DNA of 64,000 nucleotides from Bartonella clarridgeiae ATCC 51734 (GTDB lineage: Bacteria; Pseudomonadota; Alphaproteobacteria; Rhizobiales; Rhizobiaceae), in contig NZ_JADC01000009.1 of NCBI RefSeq assembly GCF_000518185.1, positions 1 to 64,000 of the forward strand, written 5' to 3'. A program made the position numbers and the translations under genes. Positions 3,934 to 28,955 of this stretch are shown here, piece by piece; the first letter of the stretch is position 1, and each line of letters opens with the position of its first letter. The notes under the pieces were generated by a model. The model was not told the origin of the DNA and did no database searches. It was given only the letters and a program-made list of their open reading frames with translations.

Positions 3934-4677
3934 TTAATAGTCAACTTTTATCAAATAAAGGCCTGAGGGAGGTGCAACTACACCACAACGAGCGCGATTT
4001 TTAGCATGAAGAGCTGCTTCGAGATCTTCAGCTGTCCAGCGTCCAATACCGACTTCCATCAGACTTCCTGCAAATGAACGAATCTGATGGTGAAGAAAAG
4101 AACGAGCTTGTGCATAAAGGAAAATTTCTTCTCCTTTTCTTTGGATATCTAAGCGTTCAAGAGTACGGATAGGACTTTTGGCTTGGCAGTGAGCTGATCG
4201 GAAAGTGGTAAAATCATGCTGTCCGACAAGTCTTTGAGCTGCTTTATGCATAGCATCAGCGTCTAGTGGTTTTGGTAACCACCAAACGCGCTTGGCATTG
4301 AGAACTGGTGGTGAGCGACGATTGAGAATTTTAAAAAGATAGTGGCGTTTAGTCGCACAAAATCGTGCATCAAAGTTATCGGGAACATTCTGGACATTTA
4401 GAATAGAAATATCTTCTCCTTGTTTCTGCAAATGTGCATTGAGAGCATCACGTACAGTATGCGTATTCCAATTTTTCTCAAAATCAATATGAGCAACTTG
4501 TCCTGTAGCATGGACTCCAGCATCGGTTCTTCCAGCTGTTGTGATGGTTAGTTTTTGTCCGCTAAAGTGAAAAATAGCTTGCTCAATGGAACCTTGTATC
4601 GTACGGAGATTCGCTTGACGTTGCCAGCCAGCATAATTTGAGCCATCATATTCAAGAGTAAGTTTAAAACGTGCCAT
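3934..4677 (-). CDS. truA: tRNA pseudouridine(38-40) synthase TruA
   Basis: TruA isomerises uridines 38-40 in the anticodon arm of many tRNAs. The 247-residue product starts at [12 protein letters not shown]. The catalytic aspartate lies in the diagnostic RTDAGVHA motif (Asp52). The second half carries the conserved [18 protein letters not shown] core and ends in the typical [13 protein letters not shown] tail. The frame is open further upstream to 4740, but that extension overlaps fmt and lacks family similarity. The start at 4677 sits one base after the fmt stop, so truA is the last gene of a def-fmt-truA operon. Confidence 0.96.
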
Positions 4678-14397: not shown

Positions 14398-15306
14398 ATG
14401 CAACTGAAGGCGTTTTTTATCGCATGTTTTTTGGGTATAATTCTTTTAACTCCCGGTATAGTTTTAAGTGCTGGTAAATTTAAAGCTGTTACAACTTTCA
14501 CTATAATTGCTGATATGGCTCGTAATGTTGCAGGTGATGTTGCCGATGTTGAATCAATTACTAAACCAGGTGCTGAAATTCATGAATATCAGCCTACACC
14601 ACGCGATCTTATGCGTGCTCAAGGAGCTAACCTTATCTTATGGAATGGTTTGGAATTAGAGCTTTGGTTTGAGAAGTTTTTTCAAAATGTCAAGGATGTT
14701 CCAAGTGTAGTCGTTTCAGAAGGTATTGTGACTATTAAAATTGGAGATGGGCCTTTTAGTGGTAAACCAAATCCCCATGCGTGGATGTCACCAGTCTCCG
14801 CTCTGATTTATGTTGATAATATTCGTGATGCTTTTGTAAAATATGATCCTGAGCATGCTGCTGTTTATAATAAAAATGCTGAAGTTTATAAACAAAAGAT
14901 TCGTTTGAGCATTGATCCAATTAAAGCTGAGTTGCAAACAATACCAGAAGACAGACGTTGGCTTGTAACAAGTGAAGGTGCATTTAGTTATTTAGCTCGT
15001 GATTTCGGTTTGAAAGAACTCTATTTATGGCCCATTAATGCTGATCAGCAAGGGACACCGCAGCAGATTAAGAATGTCATTGATGCGGTTCGGAAATATC
15101 ATATTCCAGTTGTTTTTTCTGAAAGCACTGTTTCCGCTGCACCTGCTAAGCAGGTGGCAAGAGAAACAGGAGCTAAATATGGGGGGGTACTTTATGTTGA
15201 TTCATTGAGTGATAAAGATGGTGAGGTTCCTACTTATATTGATTTATTACGTGTTACGAGTGCCCGTATTACTAAGGCTTTGTCAGATGAGGTAAAGGGT
15301 CGATGA
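14398..15306 (+). CDS. sitA: Mn/Fe ABC transporter, periplasmic metal-binding protein
   Basis: This is a cluster A-I (ZnuA/PsaA/SitA/YfeA-like) solute-binding protein that captures Mn(II), and probably Fe(II), in the periplasm. The 302-residue product has a signal peptide (about 1-25). The family's metal ligands are visible: His in [13 protein letters not shown], His in PNPHAWMSP, Glu in [15 protein letters not shown], and the region before VVFSESTVS. No His-rich loop is present, which argues against a zinc-specific ZnuA. It is first of four overlapping genes, sitABCD. In Yersinia and Bartonella literature the same genes are called yfeABCD. Confidence 0.92.
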
Positions 15307-16133
15307 CTGAGTCGGGAATATCTGCCCAAGATGTATCTGTGACTTATCGTAATGGACATACAGCTTTGCGAGAAGTGAGTTTTGAAAGTCCTATGGGTTC
15401 TATTTCCGCATTGATTGGGGTTAATGGATCAGGGAAGTCTACATTATTTAAAGCTATTATGGGATTTGTAAAACCTTCAAAGGGAAAAATTAGCATTTTA
15501 GGTTTATCAGTTAAAAAGGCTTTGAAACAAAACCTTATTGCATATGTTCCCCAGAGTGAGGATGTTGATTGGAATTTTCCTGTTCTCGTTGAAGATGTTG
15601 TTTTGATGGGAAGGTATGGCCATATGAATTTCTTTCGCTATGCCCGAGCACAAGATTATGAAGCTGTTCGTGTTGCTTTAGAACGTGTCGATATGTTGCC
15701 ATTTTCTAAACGTCAGATTGGTGAACTGTCTGGCGGACAAAAAAAACGCGTTTTTTTGGCACGTGCTCTTGCCCAGAAAGCAAAAGCTATTTTACTAGAT
15801 GAGCCTTTTACAGGAGTTGATGTCAAAACAGAGGATAAAATTATTGCTTTGTTAAAAGATCTGCGTAAAGAAGGTGCTATCATATTAGTCTCTACTCACA
15901 ATTTAGATTCCGTTGCTGAATTTTGTGATCGTACGATTTTAATCAAGGGGACGGTTGTAGCTTCTGGGTTAACAGAAGTGGTTTTTACACAAAAAAATCT
16001 TGAACAAATTTTTGATGGTGCTCTACGTCATCATTATGTTGGTTTTCAAAATGCACAAAAAAATAATGTTACCACAAATGATGATAAGTTTTTATTTCAT
16101 GATTGCAATCAAAAACTGGAGCATATTTTATGA
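15303..16133 (+). CDS. sitB: Mn/Fe ABC transporter, ATP-binding protein
   Basis: This is the cytoplasmic ATPase of the metal importer. The 276-residue product has a Walker [10 protein letters not shown], a Q-loop [11 protein letters not shown] that is characteristic of the SitB/YfeB/MntB group, the signature LSGGQKKR, Walker [13 protein letters not shown] and the STHNLDS switch histidine. Its ATG overlaps the sitA stop by four bases (ATGA), which implies translational coupling. The last 30 residues, rich in Asn, His and Asp, extend past the usual end and could be an adventitious tail or a metal-sensing segment; nothing proves either. Confidence 0.93.
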
Positions 16134-16993
16134 TTGCTTGGTTGCTTGAGCCTTTTACTTATCAATATATGATTAATGCAATGTGGGTTTCAGGGTTAGT
16201 TGGCTGTGTTTGTGCCTTTCTTTCTGCTTTTTTAATGTTAAAAGGTTGGTCATTGATTGGTGATGCGCTTTCCCATTCGATTGTACCTGGAGTTGCTGGG
16301 GCTTATCTTTTAGGACTACCTTTTTCTTTTGGAGCTTTTTTTTCTGGCGGGCTTGCTGCTGCAGCAATGTTATTTTTAAATTACAGAACAAAACTAAAAG
16401 AAGATACAATTATTGGTTTAATTTTTTCTTCCTTTTTTGCGTTTGGATTATTTCTGAAATCACTAAGACCAATGTCTGTTAATATTGATACGATTGTTCT
16501 TGGAAATATTTTAGCAGTTAGTTCATCAGATATTATGCAGTTGGCTTGTATTGGATTCTTTTCCCTTTTTATATTGTGTATAAAATGGAAAGACTTATTG
16601 GTCTTTTTATTTGATGAGAGTCATGCACACGCTATTGGATTAAATATCACGTTATTAAAAATTCTCTTTTTTACACTTCTTGCTGCTTGTACTGTTGCGG
16701 CTATGCAGACAGTAGGAGCTTTTTTAGTTATTTGTCTTGTGATTACACCGGGGGCAACTGCTTATCTTTTAACTGATCGTTTTGTAAATCTTTTGATCAT
16801 TGCAGTTATGATTGGAACCCTTACAAGTATCTTGGGTGTTTATATGAGTTATTTTCTAAACGCGCAAACCGGTGGTGTTGTTGTGCTTTTTCAAACATTT
16901 TTATTTATGGTAGCCTTTACTTTTGCTCCTAAACACGGTTACATTGCTGCACGCTTACGTGTGAGAACAGCAAAAAGGTGTAGCGATATATGA
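16130..16993 (+). CDS. sitC: Mn/Fe ABC transporter, permease
   Basis: This is the first of two inner-membrane permeases of the ABC-3 family. The product is 287 residues with about eight transmembrane helices and the family signature [19 protein letters not shown], in the loop that contacts the ATPase. The ATG at 16130 overlaps the sitB stop (ATGA), so I prefer it to the frame-open position at 16103, which would add nine non-conserved residues. The two permeases probably form a heterodimer. Confidence 0.92.
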
Positions 16994-17895
16994 TTCATCA
17001 ATTGCTGCTTCCTTTTCAGTTTTCTTTTATGATTAAAGGTATGATCATTACCATTGTTCTGGCTGTTCCAATGGCTATGCTTTCTTGTTTTCTTATTTTA
17101 AAAGGATGGGCCCTTTTAGGAGATGCAATTTCTCACGCGGTTTTTCCTGGGGTAGTTATTGGTTATATGGCGACCCCATGGGCGATGACATTTTTATCTT
17201 CTATACCGTTTCTTTGGTTTCATGATGTGCGTGCTGCTAATGTTACAATGACTTTGATTGCTTGTGGTGCTTTTTTAGCAGGTATGATTTGTGCCATTGC
17301 AACCGGTTTCTTAGGGAATAACAGTCGTATTAAACAGGATACGATTATGGGTGTTGTTTTTTCGTCCATGTTTGGTTTGGGACTTGTTTTGGCAACAGCA
17401 ATATATAGTGATTTGGATTTAAATCACATTTTATTCGGTAATCTTTTAGGTGTTAATTGGCTTGATATTACGCAAACAGCAATAATTGCTATGATTGTTG
17501 TAATGGTTTTGAGTATAAAATGGCGTGATTTTATGTTGTACATTTTTGATTCGATTCAAGCACGTGCAATAGGATTACAAATATCAGTGCTTCATTATAT
17601 TCTTTTAACAATGATTTCTCTCACAATTGTTGCTGCTCTGCAGGCAGTTGGAATTATTTTAGTTATTTCTTTGTTAATCGCACCGGGCGCTATTGCTTAT
17701 CTTATCACTAAGCGTTTTTTTTCTATGCTATTGATTGCTGTATTTATTGCAGTGTGTTCGAGTTTTCTAGGAATTTATCTCAGCTTATTTATTGGTTCTG
17801 ATTCTGCTGCCACAATTGTATTGATTTTAACACTCATTTTTATTGCTGTTTTTATATCAAATTTTTTTGTTCAGAGTACAGTTGAAGAAATTTAA
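16990..17895 (+). CDS. sitD: Mn/Fe ABC transporter, second permease
   Basis: This is the second ABC-3 permease of the importer, 301 residues with seven to eight transmembrane helices. The coupling motif GDAISHAVFPGVVIGYM is present near residue 50. The ATG overlaps the sitC stop by four bases, giving a fully coupled sitABCD operon. It has a somewhat longer periplasmic stretch (about residues 60-85, WFHDVRAANVT) than sitC, a known difference between the two subunits. A compact hairpin with a T-run ends the operon 15 bases past its stop. Confidence 0.92.
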   Translation: MIHQLLLPFQFSFMIKGMIITIVLAVPMAMLSCFLILKGWALLGDAISHAVFPGVVIGYMATPWAMTFLSSIPFLWFHDVRAANVTMTLIACGAFLAGMICAIATGFLGNNSRIKQDTIMGVVFSSMFGLGLVLATAIYSDLDLNHILFGNLLGVNWLDITQTAIIAMIVVMVLSIKWRDFMLYIFDSIQARAIGLQISVLHYILLTMISLTIVAALQAVGIILVISLLIAPGAIAYLITKRFFSMLLIAVFIAVCSSFLGIYLSLFIGSDSAATIVLILTLIFIAVFISNFFVQSTVEEI

Positions 17896-17909: not shown

Positions 17910-17932
17910 ATGCATAGCAGCTATGCATTTTT
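17910..17932 (+). terminator. Rho-independent terminator of sitABCD
   Basis: Perfect 8-bp stem ATGCATAG/CTATGCAT with a CAG loop, followed by five T residues, 15 bases past the sitD stop. It isolates the operon from the downstream small-RNA candidate. Confidence 0.7.
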
Positions 17933-17937
17933 GTATA

Positions 17938-17966
17938 TTGTTTCTAGAATTTGTTTTCATTACATA
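17938..17966 (+). promoter_or_regulatory. Candidate promoter of the AbcR-like small RNA
   Basis: TTGTTT (17938-17943) and TACATA (17961-17966) are separated by exactly 17 bases. The predicted start is around 17973, at the foot of the first RNA hairpin. The promoter lies just after the sitABCD terminator. Confidence 0.5.
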
Positions 17967-17972
17967 AAGAAA

Positions 17973-18084
17973 AGCTAGATCATTTTCCTCCTAATGTCTA
18001 GTTAATCAATGCAGTATTACTCCTCCCAACACTGCATTAGTAATTAAAGGGCTGCATTGATTTATCATGCAGCCTTTTCGTTTT
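17973..18084 (+). ncRNA. Candidate trans-acting small RNA, AbcR (alpha-r15) type
   Basis: About 112 bases that fold into three consecutive hairpins. Hairpin 1 (17973-18003) has an 11-bp stem with one bulge and the loop TTCCTCCT. Hairpin 2 (18008-18038) has a perfect 8-bp stem AATGCAGT/ACTGCATT and a loop holding CTCCTCCC. Hairpin 3 (18050-18074) is a perfect 8-bp stem GGCTGCAT/ATGCAGCC followed by TTTTCGTTTT, a standard intrinsic terminator. Two exposed anti-Shine-Dalgarno loops plus a terminator is the architecture of the Hfq-dependent AbcR small RNAs of Rhizobiales, which silence ABC-transporter mRNAs. It has its own promoter candidate, and a separate terminator precedes it. Family membership is inferred from architecture; no alignment was run. 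Confidence 0.72.
18050..18084 (+). terminator. Intrinsic terminator of the small RNA
   Basis: Perfect 8-bp stem GGCTGCAT (18050-18057) and ATGCAGCC (18067-18074), followed by TTTTCGTTTT. It is the strongest intrinsic terminator in this part of the window. Confidence 0.8.
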
Positions 18085-18270
18085 GAATTCTCTAAAGAAT
18101 TGATTTTTATTGTTTGAAAACTTTAAAATTATCATCATATTGTATAGATTGCTATCCACGCAAATGCATTAATTAATGTATTGTGTGGAGAGGTGATGAC
18201 GTATTAAAATTTTGTAAATAATATCTTGCATAATGATATCTGAATAAGAAAAAACAGCGATAAATAAATA

Positions 18271-18657
18271 ATGAAGAAAGATTTTAAGATATCCCGTCCT
18301 TTACGTATTTTCTATTCTATATTAGGGTGGGCAATGATTGTATTGGGTTTTATTGGCGTCGTTTTACCTATTATGCCTACAGTACCCTTTTTGTTGGTTG
18401 CTTCATGGTGTTTTGCTCGTTCATCACCGCGCTTTCATCATTGGTTGCATAATCACAGAATTTTCGGTTCTCCTATTAAACAATGGGAGGAAAGAAAAGC
18501 CATCCCACCATTTATTAAAATTTTTGCAGTGGTAAGTATGCTTGGTGGCTTTTTATCGTTTTTAGTGCTAATTCACCCTGCTTTGTGGTTTGCTTTATTA
18601 GTTGCGACTATTTTATTGATGATTTCTTTCTATATTGTAACACGTCCATCTTCTTAA
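18271..18657 (+). CDS. DUF454 (YbaN-like) inner-membrane protein
   Basis: A 128-residue membrane protein of the DUF454/YbaN family, function unknown. Two N-terminal hydrophobic helices contain the family core VVLPIMPTVPFLLVASWCFARSSPR. A short soluble segment with HNHRIFGSPIKQWEERKAIP follows, then two more helices (about 75-125). The conserved Pro-rich loop and the FARSSP motif make the assignment secure. It stands alone, 190 bases downstream of the small-RNA terminator and convergent with pncB. Confidence 0.88.
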   Translation: MKKDFKISRPLRIFYSILGWAMIVLGFIGVVLPIMPTVPFLLVASWCFARSSPRFHHWLHNHRIFGSPIKQWEERKAIPPFIKIFAVVSMLGGFLSFLVLIHPALWFALLVATILLMISFYIVTRPSS

Positions 18658-20375: not shown

Positions 20376-23300
20376 TCATTGTTTATCTAGGGTATATACA
20401 ATTTCATGGTTGCCTGTTTTTTTTAATTTTATACCTCTATCAATTTTGATATACTCTTTTCCATCAATATTGAGCATATTTTTATTTGCTCGTCTGACTT
20501 TAATTTTATAAACAGCATTGTGGAATTTCATTTTTGCTTCATATTCAGGCCAGGATGAGGGTAAATGTGGGCGTAAAAATAGCTTTCCAGCTTGAAGATG
20601 AAGCCCAAGGATAGTTTGTGTTGCTGCACGATAAAACCATCCTGCTGAGCCTGTATACCATGTCCAGCCACCTTGTCCACGATATGGTTCAACTGTGTAA
20701 ATATCTGCCGCCATAACATAGGGCTCAACACGATAAATTTCTGGATTTTGGCCATGATTGATAGGATTTATCCTCGAAAACAGCGTGTAAGCTTTGTCTT
20801 CTTCTCCTATTTCAGCAAGTGCTAAAATGCTCCAAATAGCACCGTGAGTATATTGTCCGCCATTTTCTCGAATTCCTGGAGGATAACCTTTAATATAACC
20901 TGGTTCAAGGGTACTTTTGTTGAAAGGTGGCCAGAAAAGATGTATGAGACCAGTTTTTTCATCATAGAGATGATCAAGCAGTGATGCCATTGCTTGTTTT
21001 TGGCGTTTAGAAGATGCCATTTTTGAAATTACAGCCCAAGATTGGGCAATAGCATCAATTTGACATTCAGCATTTATTTTAGATCCAAGAGGGGTTGCGT
21101 CATCAAAATAACCACGTCTATACCAAGCACCATCCCAACCATTTTTTTCTAGAGCTTTGGTTAGACGTTTCAAATATGCACTCCAGGCTTTAGCACGGCT
21201 ATGATCACTACGGTTTTTAGCGAGAGGAATGAATGCTTGTAAGGTAGTACCAAGAAACCATCCCAGCCAGATACTTTCACCTTTTCCTTCAATACCCACC
21301 AAGTTCATACCATCGTTCCAATCACCACCTAGAATAAGGGGTAGATTATGTGGTCCACAGCGTTTGATAGCGAGATCTAAAGCTAAAGCACAATGTTCAT
21401 AAAGTGTTGTAATGTTGGAGGATTGTGTAGGCTGGAAATAAGAATCATGTTGCCCTGCGGCTAAAGGGGGACCTTCGATAAAAGGAACTGGAGTATCAAG
21501 AAATGCATCATCGCCAGTGGTGTTAACATATAGGGCTGTTCCATAAGCAAGCCAAACGACATCATCAGAAATAAATGTGCGGACACCAGCATTTGTATCA
21601 GGAAGCCACCAATGCTGTACATCTCCTTCGGGAAATTGGTGTGCTGCTGCATTTAACAAGTGTTCACGTGCTAATTGTGGTTCAAGCAATAATAAAGATA
21701 AACTGTCTTGCAATTGATCACGGAAACCAAATGCTCCACTGGCTTGATAAAAAGCTGAGCGTGCCATCAAACGGCATGCATAAATTTGATAGGGTAGCCA
21801 ATGATTGACCATAATATCAAAAGAGGGATCAGGGGTTTTTACTTGTAATGGAGAAACAAAATCATTCCATTGTTGTTTTTGTTGTGCAAGGAGAACTTTA
21901 AAATCATCTTTACGCACTTGATCTAGTAGCTTTTCAGCTTTTTCTATATTTTCAGCACTGCCAAGATAGAAAATGATTTCTTTTGCTTGTCCTGGTTGTA
22001 AATCGATATCATAGACAAGTGCTGAACAAGGATCACGACCTGGTTCTACTGTATTTGAAAGTGCTTCAGCTTTACGGATAGCTTGTGGATGTTGAACTGT
22101 TCCTGTTGTACCGATAAATTCAGTACGATCAGTAGTAAAACTGGTTGGCATTTCGGACGCTGATAAGAAAGTAACCTGTTGAGATTTTTCGATGTGATAA
22201 GGATTCTGGATAAAATGTGCACCACGTTTAGGATCGTAATGGGGAATAATAAAAGGTGCGTATTTTGTGCGAATGTTGCCTAAAACCCATTCAGCATAAT
22301 TATAAAGGCGTAAGCTATGGGATTTTTTTCCTTTATTTTTAATGATGAGACGAGAAAAACGAATTGGCTTTTCTCGATTAAGTGTGTGGGTAAGTTCTAA
22401 TGCAATATCTGAATGTGTAGATTTAAAAGTTGAAAATCCAAAACCATGGCAAGCTTCATAAATGACGCTATCATCACATTCGACAGCAGAAACTGGAGAA
22501 AAACATTTTAAAGAAAAGCGATCAACAAGATATAGCGCTTCCCCTGGACGATTGGTAATGGGATCATTGCTCCAAGGAGTTAATTGGTAATCACGGCTAT
22601 TATTAGCCCAGGTGAAGATTGTTCCTTCAGCGGATACGTGAAAGCCAAAGCTATGGTTTGCAATTATGTTAATCCATGGATGTGGCGTTGTTTGACATCC
22701 ATTTAGACGCACTACGTAATGGTTATGCTGATTAAAACCACCATAACCATTCCAATATTGCAGATCTTCGCGCTGTATGGGGAAAGAAGAAGCTTTTTGT
22801 TGGTCAGCGAGAGCAATAGAAGAAAATAGATTTTGTTTGGTTCGTGGGGTTTTTTGTGTTCTTTTATTATATTTTTTGTAGTTTAATTTATTATTAGATT
22901 CTTGGTTATGACTGCGAATAACTAAATCGGAATCAATATTTTCTATATGTTTCAATTGTTCAGATAAAGATCCATTTTGAGCATGCAGAATAATGCGGGC
23001 TGACGCGAGAAGTGTTTTGAAACTTTGTTCGCTTATTTGATTGCGTTGGAGGGTAAAAATATGATGTTGTCCATTCATTTCTTTTGTACGGTGACGGTAA
23101 GATTCACATGCCCATTCAATGGCGCGTTGTGTATCTTGTAGATAAGAAAATGTCTGTTCATTTAAAATAACTATATCAACGATGAGACCCCGCATACGCC
23201 AATACTCATATGCTTTAAGCAGCTCACGTAGTACAGTGATATACGTTTCATTATCTAGTCTGAGTAGGCAAATAGGATAATCCCCTGAAATGGACATTGG

Positions 23301-26300
23301 CCATAAATCAGATTGTTTTCCAAGAGTTTTTGCTAATATTTCGGGAGAAAGACGCCATTTTCGATCAGGATAGATAAGTGGTGTTATGTATTTTTGATAA
23401 GTAATAGCTTCTCTAGGACTGATATTGTTTTGATACAGTGAAACTTGTGAATGCGTCCATGCTTTTGATAATTCTTGCTGGAACATATCAGGTTGTCGAT
23501 AGTATTTAATGTAATGTTGTAACGTTTCTTTTGAATCGGCCGCAAAAGTCCAAAAAATAAGTTCTGCTTTTCCATGCGCCGGAACTTTTACACAACTGCG
23601 GATTGAAATAATCGGATCAAGAACACACCCTTGATTGCCTTTGAAATAAGTATTTTGATCAAAGGCAATTGGATGATGAATAGATCGACCACGGCTGATA
23701 AAAAGACGGCGATCAGTTTCTGCTTCTGCTTCTGGAATAATTCCTGATGGATCAGTAACAAAATGAGCGATATGAATATTGGGATCATGAGGAGAACGCT
23801 TGCGCCTTTTAGCTAAGATTGTCCCACCTGAATCAAGAATTTCTGTTTCTATAAACATCCGTGAAAAAATAGGATGAGCACAATCATTATCAATTGTTGC
23901 AAGCGCTAATTCACCATAAGAAGTTATTTCAATTATTCGATCTTTGTTGGTTGTGTTGATTAATTGTATACGTCGACCTTCACCATCACCTTCAGAAGCA
24001 ATAAGACATTCAAGTGTTGATTTCAGGCCATCAACCGTTTTTGTATATTCAGCTTTTTCATCTGTAAAAATGCTGACAACTTCTTCTTCAGCCACACGTG
24101 TTGGTTCATTGGTGATAGACCACCAGCGTTTATTGTGTGTATCTTTGATGAAGAATAAAGTCCCTTGTTGATCTTCTGATGCATCAGGAATAAAACGCGT
24201 AATAGCATAATTATGCCAACGGCTATAGCCAGAACCATTTGCTGTCATCATTATGGAATAACAGCCATTTGATAGAAGTAAAGTTGCTCGAGGTTTAAGA
24301 AGAGGATTCGTAATAATGCGCACAGGGGCATCATCAAAACCTTTAGAATTATTGCGCATAGGATTGTTGATTTTAGTATGAATGACAGGAATTTGTCGTG
24401 GAGCTCTTTCCTGTAATAATATTTGTGCAGCTTTTATAACTGGATCACGATGAAAGCGATCACGTATCCGCCCTTCAAAAATGACATTATTGATAGCAAG
24501 AATCGACATACCATGATGATGCGCGTAATAATTACGCACAATGGCATATTTTTTTCCTTTTTGCACACGTGAAGGAGTAAAATCAATAGAATCATAATAA
24601 CCATATGTTCCTAAAGCACCAAGATTACGTAGTTGCTTTAGATTAGCGATGGCTTGAGCTGGCATATATTGTGCAGCTAAAAGACTGGCATAAGGAGCAA
24701 TAACGGTATTGCGTGATAAGCCGCGTTGAAGTCCGAGACTTGGAACACCAAAATTAGAATATTGGTAATTCATTAAGTGATCACGGGCATTAAATGCTGC
24801 TTCTGAGATACCCCATGGTAATCGTCGTTTACGCGCATATTGTATTTGATGGCGGATAATGAGCCGATTTGTTTGATCGAGTATCGATCCTAAGGGCTCA
24901 TGCATAACTAGAGAAGGCATGAGATATTCAAACATGGATCCTGACCATGATAATAGAGCACCTTTCCAACCAATTGGGACAAGTAATCGGCCGAGATGAA
25001 ACCAATGTTTAAATTTAATATCGCCTTTAGCAATAGCAAATAAGCTTGCGAGACGTGCTTCTGAAGCTAGAAGATCATAGCAGCTTTCGTCGAGTTTATT
25101 TTCCTGTACGCGATAGCCAATAGATAAAAGTTGTCGTTCAGTTTGTTCTAAAAAATCAAATTTCATATCAAAAGCTATTTGTCGCGCTTTTTCAGATAAA
25201 ATATTTAATTTTTTGCATAGTTCTTTAATATCATAGTCACTGGTAATATCATGTTTATGAGCTTCACAAGTTTCTACCAGACATTTAGCCCAAGATAACA
25301 TGTGAGCAGATTCTTTTGTTTGGATTGTTTTATCGAGTTCGTTGATCAAATGTACAATATTACGAGCAGTAATCGAAAGACGAGTAATGTTCGTAACGGT
25401 TTTTGATTTTGTTTTGAGTGCGCTAACAGAGTGATGAAAATTAGCAATATGCTCTTTGATCTGTTGGCGTAATGGATAAAGAATATTAAGATTATCAGGA
25501 ATTTCTTTTAAGGTTTCTTCAAGAATATTATTAACATCGAATAAACTATCTAGATCACTTTGTAAAAAAGTGTCAGGTGTTTCAGCCCATTCGCTTAAAG
25601 CGGAAGCCAATGTTATTAAGTGGCCTGCAAGATTGCCTGAATCAACTGTTGAAACATAAGTTGGTAGAAGAGGTTTAAGTGTATCTGTTTCATACCAATT
25701 ATAAAGATGACCACGAAACTTTTCCATTTTTTCAAGAGTACTTAATGTGCACTTAATTCGCGTAATAGCATCTTCAAAGCTAATCCAACCAAAGTCGCGT
25801 GCAGCAATAATAGAAAGCAGATAAACTCCAATATTGGTAGGTGATGTGCGCTGCGCAACGAGAGGTTCAGGCTCTTCCTGAAAATTATCAGGTGGCAAAT
25901 AATTACTTTGTGAATTGACAAAAGTTGTATAATAAAACCATGTCCGTCGTGCAATGCATCGTAGTATTTTTTTATCTTTGGAAGATATAGATATATCAAG
26001 AACATCTTGAAATGTTTTTGGTTTACTGACAATACATGCAATCAGTGGTGAGAAAAACCAAAGAAGCCCAAAGGGTAAAGCAATCAAGATTGTTGAATTA
26101 TGAAAGTATAGTGGTAATCCTATAGCAATAATACCAATAAACACTGCTGGCCACATAGTGATAATATAGAAGCTTAAACTATTGGGAATTGATTTCGTTG
26201 CGGATGAAGTTTTCCATTCAAGAAGATACTGTTTTGAGATCATCATGCGATAGAGTGCGCGGATGATTGCATCAGTCATAAAATAAGCTGAGTGAGCTAT

Positions 26301-28955
26301 AAATGTGATTTTAAGAAGCATTTCTAATATTGTAGAGGAAATGCTACTTGAAATTAATTGTAACTGTCCGCGTAAAGAATAATCACTACTGGAAGGAATA
26401 AATGTGCGAAGGACACCTAAAATTGGTGCAATGAAGGGGCTGAGAAGAAGAAATATTTGCCAAAAAATTGCTATCTTTAACGGTAAAAGAGACCATCCTG
26501 CTGTTGCTGCGATAAGCCACATGAGTGGTGTGAGAGAACGGCGCAAATTGTCTTGCATTTTCCAGCGTGTAGTTAGACTCGTGTTATGGTGGTTTAAAAG
26601 ATAAGGCAATAGTTGCCAGTCACCACGGATCCAACGGTGATGGCGAGCAATATCAACGTTATAGGCTGTTGGATAATCTTCAATAATTTCTACGTCGCTT
26701 ACAAGTGCAGCACGTGCATAACTTCCTTCCAAAAGATCGTGACTAAGAACAGTATTATCTTTGATTTTATTATTCAGTGCTTGTTCAAAGGCATCGATAT
26801 TATAAAGACCTTTTCCAGTGAAAGTTCCTTCTCCCAAGAGATCTTGATAGGTATCGGATACAGCAAAGACATAAGGGTCAATTCCACGATTAGTAGAGAA
26901 AACTCGTTGCAGAATTGATGTTTCTTCTTCTGCTGTGAGAGAGGGTGTGATACGGGGTTGTAAAATGCTGTAGCCTTTTACAACTGCTCCATTTTTTTTA
27001 GAAAAAATAGGGCGATTAAGTGGATGGTTGAGCTTACCAACTAGTTTAGTGACACTTTCAGGAGTTAAACGTGTGTCTGAGTCCAAAGTCATAACAAAAC
27101 GACAATCCATAGGAAGATGTGGATCTGGAGTATAAAAACTGGTATTTTTATTTCCTCGGAGTAAGAGATTAAGCTCATGCAGTTTCCCACGCTTGCGTTC
27201 CCACCCCATCCAACATTTTTCATGAGCATTATAGAGACGCCGACGATGGAGAAGAAAAAATAGGGGAGTGGTATCACGATGATAACGATGGTTAAGTTGA
27301 GCAATACCCTTTTGTGCATAGTGCAACAGATCAAGGTCGTTTTGTGTTTCCGCAAAAGGGGCATCTGCCCAGTCCGTGATAAGAGCAAAATGAATGGCAC
27401 CTTGAGGGTTAGAAAGATAGTGCACTTCAAGATTACGTATTTGTTCATCGATATCATTACGTGATGTGATTAAAGTAGGGACAACGACTATTGTACGCGC
27501 ATCTTCGGGAATACCCTCTTTATATTCATAACCAATGAGCTGATTTGGTGGAACAAACCATGACACAACAGTGTTAAAAAAAGCAAAAGCGGCATCCATA
27601 GTAGGAAAAAGAGCTAGTGCAGTGAAGAGGAGTGTCATTAATGTTTTCAGGCCGGATATTCGTAACGAAGTATAGATCGCAAACAAAAGAACAAGTATTA
27701 AAAGAGAAACAGGGATTGCAATGGCTCCTATTTTTAAACGATAATAAGTTTGTATCCATTTTGTCAGAAATGATGGATTGTATCCGCAGGCTTCTTCAAA
27801 AATAGAACGTCCGTCATCAACAAGGTACCATCCAACAGAAAAATTATTTTTATGAGCAACATCTTGAGAGCAAGTTTGCGCCATCTCTACAGCTTTACGT
27901 GCAATTTCTACTTCACTAAGAGGTGAACGATGTGCGATCGTTTCGATGACTTGTCGATAAGCATTGCGTGAGTGAGAATCAATTTCAGAAAAATCACTAT
28001 TTTCACGCAGGATAAAGTCTACACAACTTACTGTTTCAAACCATGCTGTCCAATCAACATCATCAATAGTTTTGAGAGCACGAATAATATTGCCCATGGT
28101 TATACCATCTGTTGTTTGACGAGTATGTTCATCAGCTGTTATCATTTCTGTGCTACTACCATGAAGATACAACTGTTCTTCAAGCCAGGTTAATGCTCTT
28201 GTTGAATCAACAGATGTACCTCGCAGACGGTAAAATAAATGAGCTGAAAAAGTCGAATGAGAAGTTAGTTTTTCATAAAGAGTGAGAATATTTAATTGAG
28301 TTTCATTTTTTGCAAGGGCAGTTTTATCAGCTACTTGATTAGCAAGAGAGCGCATATACCGTGCTTGCTCAATACGCAATGAAAGACGACGGACATTTTC
28401 AATTAAGATCATACGAACAACAAAAGGAAGCGCCCACAATTCACTAATTTTTAGAGTACAAACTTTTTGAAAACCATTCACCATTGCTGTAAGTGTTTCT
28501 TGTAAAAACCTGCTATCTGTATGCGCAACATAAAGCCAGGCTAAAGCGAAAATACGTGGAATTTCTTTCTTTTGTTGGTAAGGGGGGAGTTGCTTGATGA
28601 AAGACTTAGAAAAATTGCAGCATAGCTGCTGTATAGTTTTATCAATGGTATAATGGTTATCAATAAGCCACTGGGCGGATGGTGCAATTGTTTCATTATT
28701 ACGTGCAGCAACATCATTGATGCGAAAGACATGGAGAATAAGTTTAGAATTTTCAATCAATCGTCTACGAAAATCATTTTCTTCTTTATATTCAGGAAGA
28801 AAGATTTCTTGGCCAGAGGCTATATTATGACCTAACTTATAAAGCTCTTCTTGTGATTTACTGGTTGAACGGATAGGGGAATTAGTTTCATCGAGATAGT
28901 GAATTTTTGCCTTTTGGGAAGAAAACCACTTCTTGCGATGTAATATGGATACCAT
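20376..28955 (-). CDS. ndvB: Cyclic beta-1,2-glucan synthase
   Basis: This 2859-residue inner-membrane enzyme makes cyclic beta-1,2-glucan from UDP-glucose by self-priming, elongation, length control and cyclisation; the glucan is exported to the periplasm. Its length matches ChvB/NdvB/Cgs (about 2830-2870). Hydrophobic helices occur near residues 410-470 and 815-990. The glycosyltransferase domain between them has a DSD motif near residue 623 and [10 protein letters not shown] near 775. The C-terminal half holds the glucan-processing and phosphorylase-like (GH94) region, with GGDWNDGMN near residue 2543 and [12 protein letters not shown] after it. The frame is uninterrupted over 8.6 kb. It stands alone between pncB and rpsA; no ndvA/chvA exporter is adjacent. 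Confidence 0.95.

Follow-up and report, generated by a model that had tools for sequence, protein, structure and literature searches.

A small RNA gene appears to lie between a sitABCD-like metal transporter operon and a DUF454 family gene in Bartonella clarridgeiae ATCC 51734, and the locus raises the question of which family this RNA belongs to, what switches it on, and on which messages it might act. The locus sits in what is here called the window, the whole 64,000-nucleotide stretch of DNA that was analysed (contig NZ_JADC01000009.1, positions 1 to 64,000). An initial annotation had described a trans-acting RNA with two anti-Shine-Dalgarno (anti-SD) loops and its own promoter and terminator, and had placed it in the AbcR (ar15) family or, failing that, among convergent designs. 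The description is supported by the present analysis, now with covariation, and the family is not. We judge, at a probability of about 80%, that the locus specifies a stand-alone, eroded ar14 (NfeR1) orthologue of ~110 nt, which would be activated by a regulator of the LsrB/VtlR type and would act by blocking translation initiation.

Architecture of the locus

The RNA gene begins, by our reading, 77 nt beyond the end of sitD and on the same strand. The features of the locus are as follows.

14398..17895, + strand: sitABCD-like metal ABC transporter operon of four ORFs, upstream of the RNA (ORF calls and family matches)
17910..17933, + strand: palindrome plus T-run, a terminator-like hairpin (the terminator scan lists 17910-17928) with a possible second role as sit terminator
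17912..17926, - strand: palindrome GCATAGCAGCTATGC, which fits the VtlR/LsrB box GCAT-N3-TG-N3-T, at -61 to -47 from the putative start at 17973
17938..17966, + strand: candidate promoter read by eye, with -35 TTGTTT (17938-17943), a 17-nt spacer and -10 TACATA (17961-17966)
17973..18082, + strand: small RNA gene, divergent ar14 (NfeR1-type) orthologue, from Rfam ar14 and our own model R1; start putative
17973..18003, + strand: hairpin 1, with loop UUCCUCCU at 17985-17992 (anti-SD 1)
18008..18038, + strand: hairpin 2, with loop AUUACUCCUCCCAAC at 18016-18030 (anti-SD 2)
18046..18085, + strand: hairpin 3 (stem 18046-18078) and T-rich tail, an intrinsic terminator whose loop lacks an anti-SD motif
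18271..18657, + strand: DUF454 family ORF, downstream of the RNA (97.5 bits, below the cut-off of 163)

The first and last ORFs of the sit operon match metal/zinc ABC transporter families with scores below the curated cut-offs. Farther along the window, the - strand carries an ORF of 2859 aa (20376-28955), which we take to resemble cyclic beta-glucan synthases.

The three hairpins described earlier within ~110 bases are confirmed by folding. The minimum free energy of 17973-18090 is -34.3 kcal/mol, compared with -17.45 +/- 3.23 in dinucleotide shuffles (z = -5.22), and none of 200 such shuffles is equally stable. Loops 1 and 2 read as first reported, the second containing CUCCUCCC; the tail TTTTCGTTTT follows hairpin 3. 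The terminator scan does not list hairpin 3 with this tail, although the stem and a T-rich tail are kept in 41 of 41 rows of the Bartonella alignment described below. The initial annotation had further suggested that the 5' arm of hairpin 2 might pair with the terminator. Such an alternative fold, pairing 18004-18014 with 18052-18062, is physically possible: it is predicted at -25.6 vs -34.3 kcal/mol for the full-length RNA, and of seven truncated lengths tried, those ending at 18058, 18066 and 18070 adopt it as their best fold and those ending at 18040, 18050, 18075 and 18080 do not. It is predicted for truncated transcripts of only six of the 41 orthologues, however, so it was rejected as a conserved switch. 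A small ORF inside the RNA was also considered and is unlikely, because its length varies irregularly between species.

Assignment to the ar14 family

Rfam models were run on the window at curated thresholds, which yielded only a tRNA, and then in E-value mode on 386 bases. At the RNA locus the only match with a low E-value was to ar14 (RF02344), a full-length one over 17967-18082 with 35.5 bits (E 3.7e-5) against a cut-off of 58.8. The ar15 (RF02345) model, to which the initial annotation had pointed, gave no match at the locus up to E 10 and none in the whole genome at E <= 0.001.

The window RNA shares with NfeR1 (Smr14C2) the three hairpins, of which the last is a terminator, the anti-SD loops, the full-length covariance match, an LsrB-type box upstream and a sigma-70-type promoter. 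It differs in several respects. A published account of NfeR1 gives an anti-SD motif in all three hairpins as a family feature (PMC10746234), and the corresponding CCUCCUCCC should be unpaired in each; the window RNA has CCUCCU and CUCCUCCC in two loops and no anti-SD motif in the terminator loop, and loop 1 is shortened to UUCCUCCU. The score below the gathering cut-off and the presence of two rather than three anti-SD loops weaken the assignment, and we therefore speak of an ar14-derived orthologue, not of a textbook member.

The case for ar14 is carried by relatives. Among 61 Bartonella genomes, ar14 matches at E <= 0.001 in 35, and orthologues in 13 pass the curated cut-off that the window RNA misses (loci L024-L036, hereafter the cut-off-passing group, from species that we assume to be bee-associated). 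All 13 of these loci have sitD upstream, at a distance of ~0.9-1.3 kb; in five that were examined, a gene starting with the motif [I/V]INLDRS, presumably of glycosyltransferase family 25, separates sitD from the RNA. The copies examined align with the window RNA over its whole length; each of their three loops has an anti-SD motif, and CTCCTCCC is present in the terminator region. Together with the covariation of the stems set out below, this synteny and full-length alignability identify the window RNA, at the level of sequence comparison, as an eroded ar14 (NfeR1-type) orthologue. In 12 of the 13 genomes of the group (G006, G007, G008, G012, G014, G017, G020, G056, G057, G068, G071, G074), a second, lower-scoring ar14 copy (46.7-57.7 bits) is present elsewhere.

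An unrelated, Bartonella-only RNA that acquired anti-SD loops by convergence would account for the sub-threshold Rfam score, and it would suit the original report on B. bacilliformis, in which the likely orthologue is presented as a novel sRNA. We nevertheless consider convergence improbable: ar14 scores of 30 to 87 bits recur across Bartonella at one syntenic place, the upstream box is shared, and loops, stems and linker can be aligned.

Conservation and covariation in Bartonella

A genome scan that finds close relatives only returned 40 Bartonella sitD records (two from one assembly), and the RNA lies directly 3' of sitD in all 40. Another SitD-like protein, at 56% identity, the same as in Pseudochrobactrum records, comes from a record titled Bacillus subtilis (L103, JAHREI010000001.1), probably a mislabelled or contaminated assembly. 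The model R1 was built from the 40 loci and the window (41 rows, alignment A1), and it detects the RNA in every one of 71 Bartonella genomes, with a best E <= 1.3e-7 in each and 119.7 bits for the window RNA. One copy is present in 68 of the 71; two copies are spaced ~145 nt from each other in G009 and G066 and lie on separate contigs in G058, an assembly with 10% contamination. Beyond the genus, R1 was run on 30 non-Bartonella ar14 loci and matched nine of them at the ar14 position with E <= 1, the best being L143 at 32.5 bits. Since false minus-strand matches of R1 on the inverted repeat of the terminator reach 26.7 bits, only three of the nine (32.5, 28.6 and 27.1 bits) stand above background, and the match to just nine of 30 loci makes descent from ar14 less firm.

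In A1, 94.6% of cells pair, five pairs are double-changed (38 of 500 shuffles have as many) and the covariation score is 0.143 (21 of 500 shuffles score as high); there is too little divergence in this alignment, and its covariation is consequently modest and not decisive. More divergence was brought in with A4, an alignment to which cut-off-passing orthologues were added (27 matches from 26 sources, picked for spread). Here 94.9% of cells pair, 11 pairs are double-changed vs a shuffle mean of 6.0, the double-changed cells number 55 vs a mean of 15.3, and the covariation score is 0.300 vs 0.217 in shuffles. In pairs, cells and score alike, no shuffle out of 500 comes up to A4, and versions of A4 that were slid score 0.091 at most; further pair types, one of five measures taken, are no more numerous than in shuffles (35 vs 35.8). 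The fitting of A4 to the model structure inflates these figures. Stem 1 is plainly rewritten among the A4 orthologues with its pairing kept. The stems thus covary in relatives, as the initial annotation would have had it.

Promoter and upstream palindrome

The -10 element ends six bases before 17973, where transcription would start, and the TTGT of the -35 element is conserved by eye in the aligned Bartonella rows. The promoter candidate with 17-base spacing noted earlier is present, and is weak by sigma-70 consensus, as TTGTTT-17-TACATA is unlisted in a consensus promoter scan.

The palindrome farther upstream had been taken for a separate terminator of the sit operon. A hairpin with a T-run does exist at 17910-17933, but it is better read first as an operator. 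The sequence GCAT-N3-TG-N3-T is described as a proposed VtlR box for Brucella abortus and A. tumefaciens (PMC7486931), and a VtlR/LsrB box is reported at -61 to -49 of an LsrB-activated AbcR1 promoter (PMC8844928). Of the 41 aligned Bartonella loci, 39 have an exact box and two a box with one mismatch, and the palindrome starts 69-73 nt before loop 1 throughout the 41. Among 30 Bartonella ar14 loci (taken from 48 Bartonella ar14 matches, second copies not among them), 29 likewise have an exact box, at -51 to -55 relative to the start of the model. For other genera, an exact box lies within 150 nt in six of 30 ar14 loci, against ~29 box matches in ~93 kb overall. A stricter form of the palindrome has a single occurrence, always at the RNA, in 14 of the 16 Bartonella genomes searched, and is also present in one of nine non-Bartonella genomes of the order; a reversed control gave no match.

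These data bear on two rival explanations. According to the first, the palindrome is solely the sit terminator, for which the hairpin with T-run, the scan match and a T-run kept at each of the 41 loci next to sitD all speak. This is unlikely, however, given that the palindrome fits the VtlR box near a published position and stays at a fixed distance from the RNA even where sitD is not adjacent and the T-run is broken, as in the five examined loci with a gene between sitD and the RNA. According to the second, the RNA is a processed 3' part of the sit transcript without a promoter of its own, which its short distance from sitD and common direction would allow. In those same five relatives, however, palindrome and RNA remain together across the intervening gene, and the second copy in B. 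bacilliformis has its own palindrome; such processing is very improbable. Because the palindrome tracks the RNA and not sitD, and the T-run is broken in the five examined loci where sitD is non-adjacent, the operator reading is favoured, with a second role as sit terminator possible. It is made somewhat less firm by the box of the NfeR1 promoter itself, which is placed at -72 to -60 (PMC10746234), not exactly the position of -61 to -47 found here.

The candidate LysR regulator and an AbcR1-like RNA elsewhere in the genome

The genome has a single PF00126 (LysR) match, in the gene directly 3' of trxB. Its protein, used as a query, has a single match in 17 of 25 Bartonella genomes and 4-14 matches in the other eight. 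The same eight multi-LysR genomes pass the ar15 cut-off, and neither this genome nor the other 16 single-LysR genomes yield an ar15 match at E <= 0.001. The protein is near the solved structure 9hh1 (462 bits), which is named only as a LysR-family regulator; on the strength of trxB-lsrB being, as we assume, the usual gene order, we infer that it is LsrB/VtlR.

AbcR1/2 are described as lying beside lsrB (PMC8844928). An AbcR1-like RNA was collected by pattern 3' of the LysR gene at 17 of 25 loci, ten of them in single-LysR genomes, this one included. The copy in this genome follows trxB-lysR outside the window, on contig C1 at ~276355-276474 (L157:2523-2642), folds with a z of -4.9 and has a box-like, inexact LysR site upstream. 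It has no ar15 match, and its identity thus rests on alignment and synteny. Four AbcR1-like loci were compared with ar15 in E-value mode: L174 scores 50.9 bits, L160 reaches a sub-threshold 26.2 bits (E 0.076), and L163 and L166 have no match up to E 0.1. An exact LysR box is present 3' of the LysR gene at 8 of 8 multi-LysR loci vs 1 of 17 single-LysR loci, that of the present genome not being the one.

An AbcR identity for the window RNA has in its favour the two anti-SD loops and the type of LysR box, which AbcR1/2 (ar15) carry near -61 to -49. It was rejected, and is extremely improbable, in view of the missing covariance match where ar14 matches instead, a locus that adjoins sitD and not lsrB/vtlR, and the AbcR1-like RNA that follows trxB-lysR in the same genome, whose counterparts match ar15 in L174 and weakly in L160, though not in L163 or L166.

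Correspondence with BbsR14

BbsR14 of B. bacilliformis is described as an RNA-seq-expressed RNA, reported among novel sRNAs, with two stem-loops containing TTCCTCCTAA (PMC7717549). Exactly this motif pair is found at the orthologous locus of B. bacilliformis Ver097 (L087), in the copy adjoining sitD. G009 and G066, two genomes of 1.4 Mb in which the RNA is present in tandem, also have the pair a single time each, at the orthologous RNA, and it is absent from three other Bartonella genomes tested. By this match to the published description, BbsR14 is likely to be the B. bacilliformis counterpart of the window RNA, from which it differs in having a tandem second copy. The duplication (L087:3974-4097 and 4243-4357) includes the palindrome, and the loops of the second copy have diverged.

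The main text of the BbsR14 paper contains none of the terms r14, ar14, r15, NfeR1, AbcR or Rfam (PMC7717549). Literature joining Bartonella with ar14 or VtlR was not found in a search that a Greek-letter spelling of ar14 could escape. A review, in its passage on ar14, gives the carriers as Rhizobiaceae, Brucellaceae and Phyllobacteriaceae, and the passages of a Mesorhizobium paper that mention Bartonella and NfeR1 draw no link between them.

Erosion of the anti-SD loops and candidate targets

Across the 41 aligned RNAs, CCTCC is kept in loop 1 of 40, whereas loop 2 has the full CCTCC in 13, is reduced to CTCC in 27 and lacks both in one; CTCC or CCTC is found in the terminator region of none. 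Thus, in 28 of 41 rows loop 2 departs from NfeR1 in lacking CCTCC, often having a C-tract instead, and its longest C-run ranges from 2 to 11. The segment corresponding to loop 2 (18016-18030) is, in many Bartonella, a C-tract of variable length (to 11) that would be slippage-prone and might serve as a tunable seed.

NfeR1, the founder of the family, is reported from experiments in S. meliloti to repress mRNAs via its anti-SD motifs and to silence ntrBC, and is described there as Hfq-independent (PMC10746234). Seven Bartonella genomes were searched for NtrC: the cut-off was passed in G003 and G006 and missed in G000, G001, G002, G004 and G005. The genome studied here has no NtrC match over the cut-off, in which it again differs from the NfeR1 setting, and the NfeR1-ntrBC circuit is for this reason probably gone. 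The best match to the NtrC model in this genome (346.7 bits) is presumably NtrX.

Repression of the neighbouring sitABCD genes, which the initial annotation had entertained, is unsupported. When loop-to-start-region duplex energies were computed over 45 mechanically called window ORFs, sitA ranked 36 (-3.4 kcal/mol), sitB 15 (-7.0), sitC 23 (-6.0) and sitD 25 (-5.8), and the DUF454 ORF gave -2.6; repression by loop pairing was rejected on these ranks, which are only a weak negative because the ORF starts are mechanical. Genome-wide, the full 11-nt complement of loop 1 occurs in no mRNA; its sole exact match lies in the RNA gene. When one mismatch is allowed, there are 46 sites (the RNA gene included) vs 69 for a reversed control, and four of the 28 sites examined have a start codon in range and an ORF >= 50 aa. 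The lack of long complementary targets is in keeping with a short seed, and blocking of Shine-Dalgarno sites is the favoured reading.

Proposed mechanism and implications

In the mechanism that we propose, the LsrB/VtlR-type regulator, encoded by the only LysR gene found in the genome, would bind the palindrome at -61 to -47 and activate the sRNA promoter. The RNA would then expose CUCC-rich loops able to pair with Shine-Dalgarno sequences, and this pairing would block translation initiation of several mRNAs, the prospective target set.

A broader evolutionary scenario is offered tentatively, and we think it rather doubtful as a whole. Bartonella, while shrinking its regulator set, may have kept one LysR protein (LsrB/VtlR) to switch both AbcR1 and the ar14 RNA after the loss of NtrC. 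The ar14 RNA may have shed its anti-SD loops stepwise, from three to two to one plus a length-variable C-tract, so that a regulator of nitrogen stress became a damper acting broadly on translation through a short seed, with an operator that doubled as the terminator of a metal transporter operon. The AbcR1 half of this scenario is weakened by the box counts given above, an exact box being found at a single one of the 17 single-LysR loci, and not here, vs all eight multi-LysR loci.

The locus illustrates that an operator palindrome preceding an sRNA can be mistaken for the terminator of the upstream operon. A conserved Bartonella RNA, whose likely orthologue BbsR14 entered the literature with neither a family assignment nor a demonstrated function, can now be given a family, together with a candidate regulator and a mechanism open to testing. 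Given that five single-LysR genomes searched have no NtrC match over the cut-off, the genus may also provide a natural test of what role such an RNA assumes once its best-known target circuit is lost, and of how an anti-SD RNA loses its seeds.
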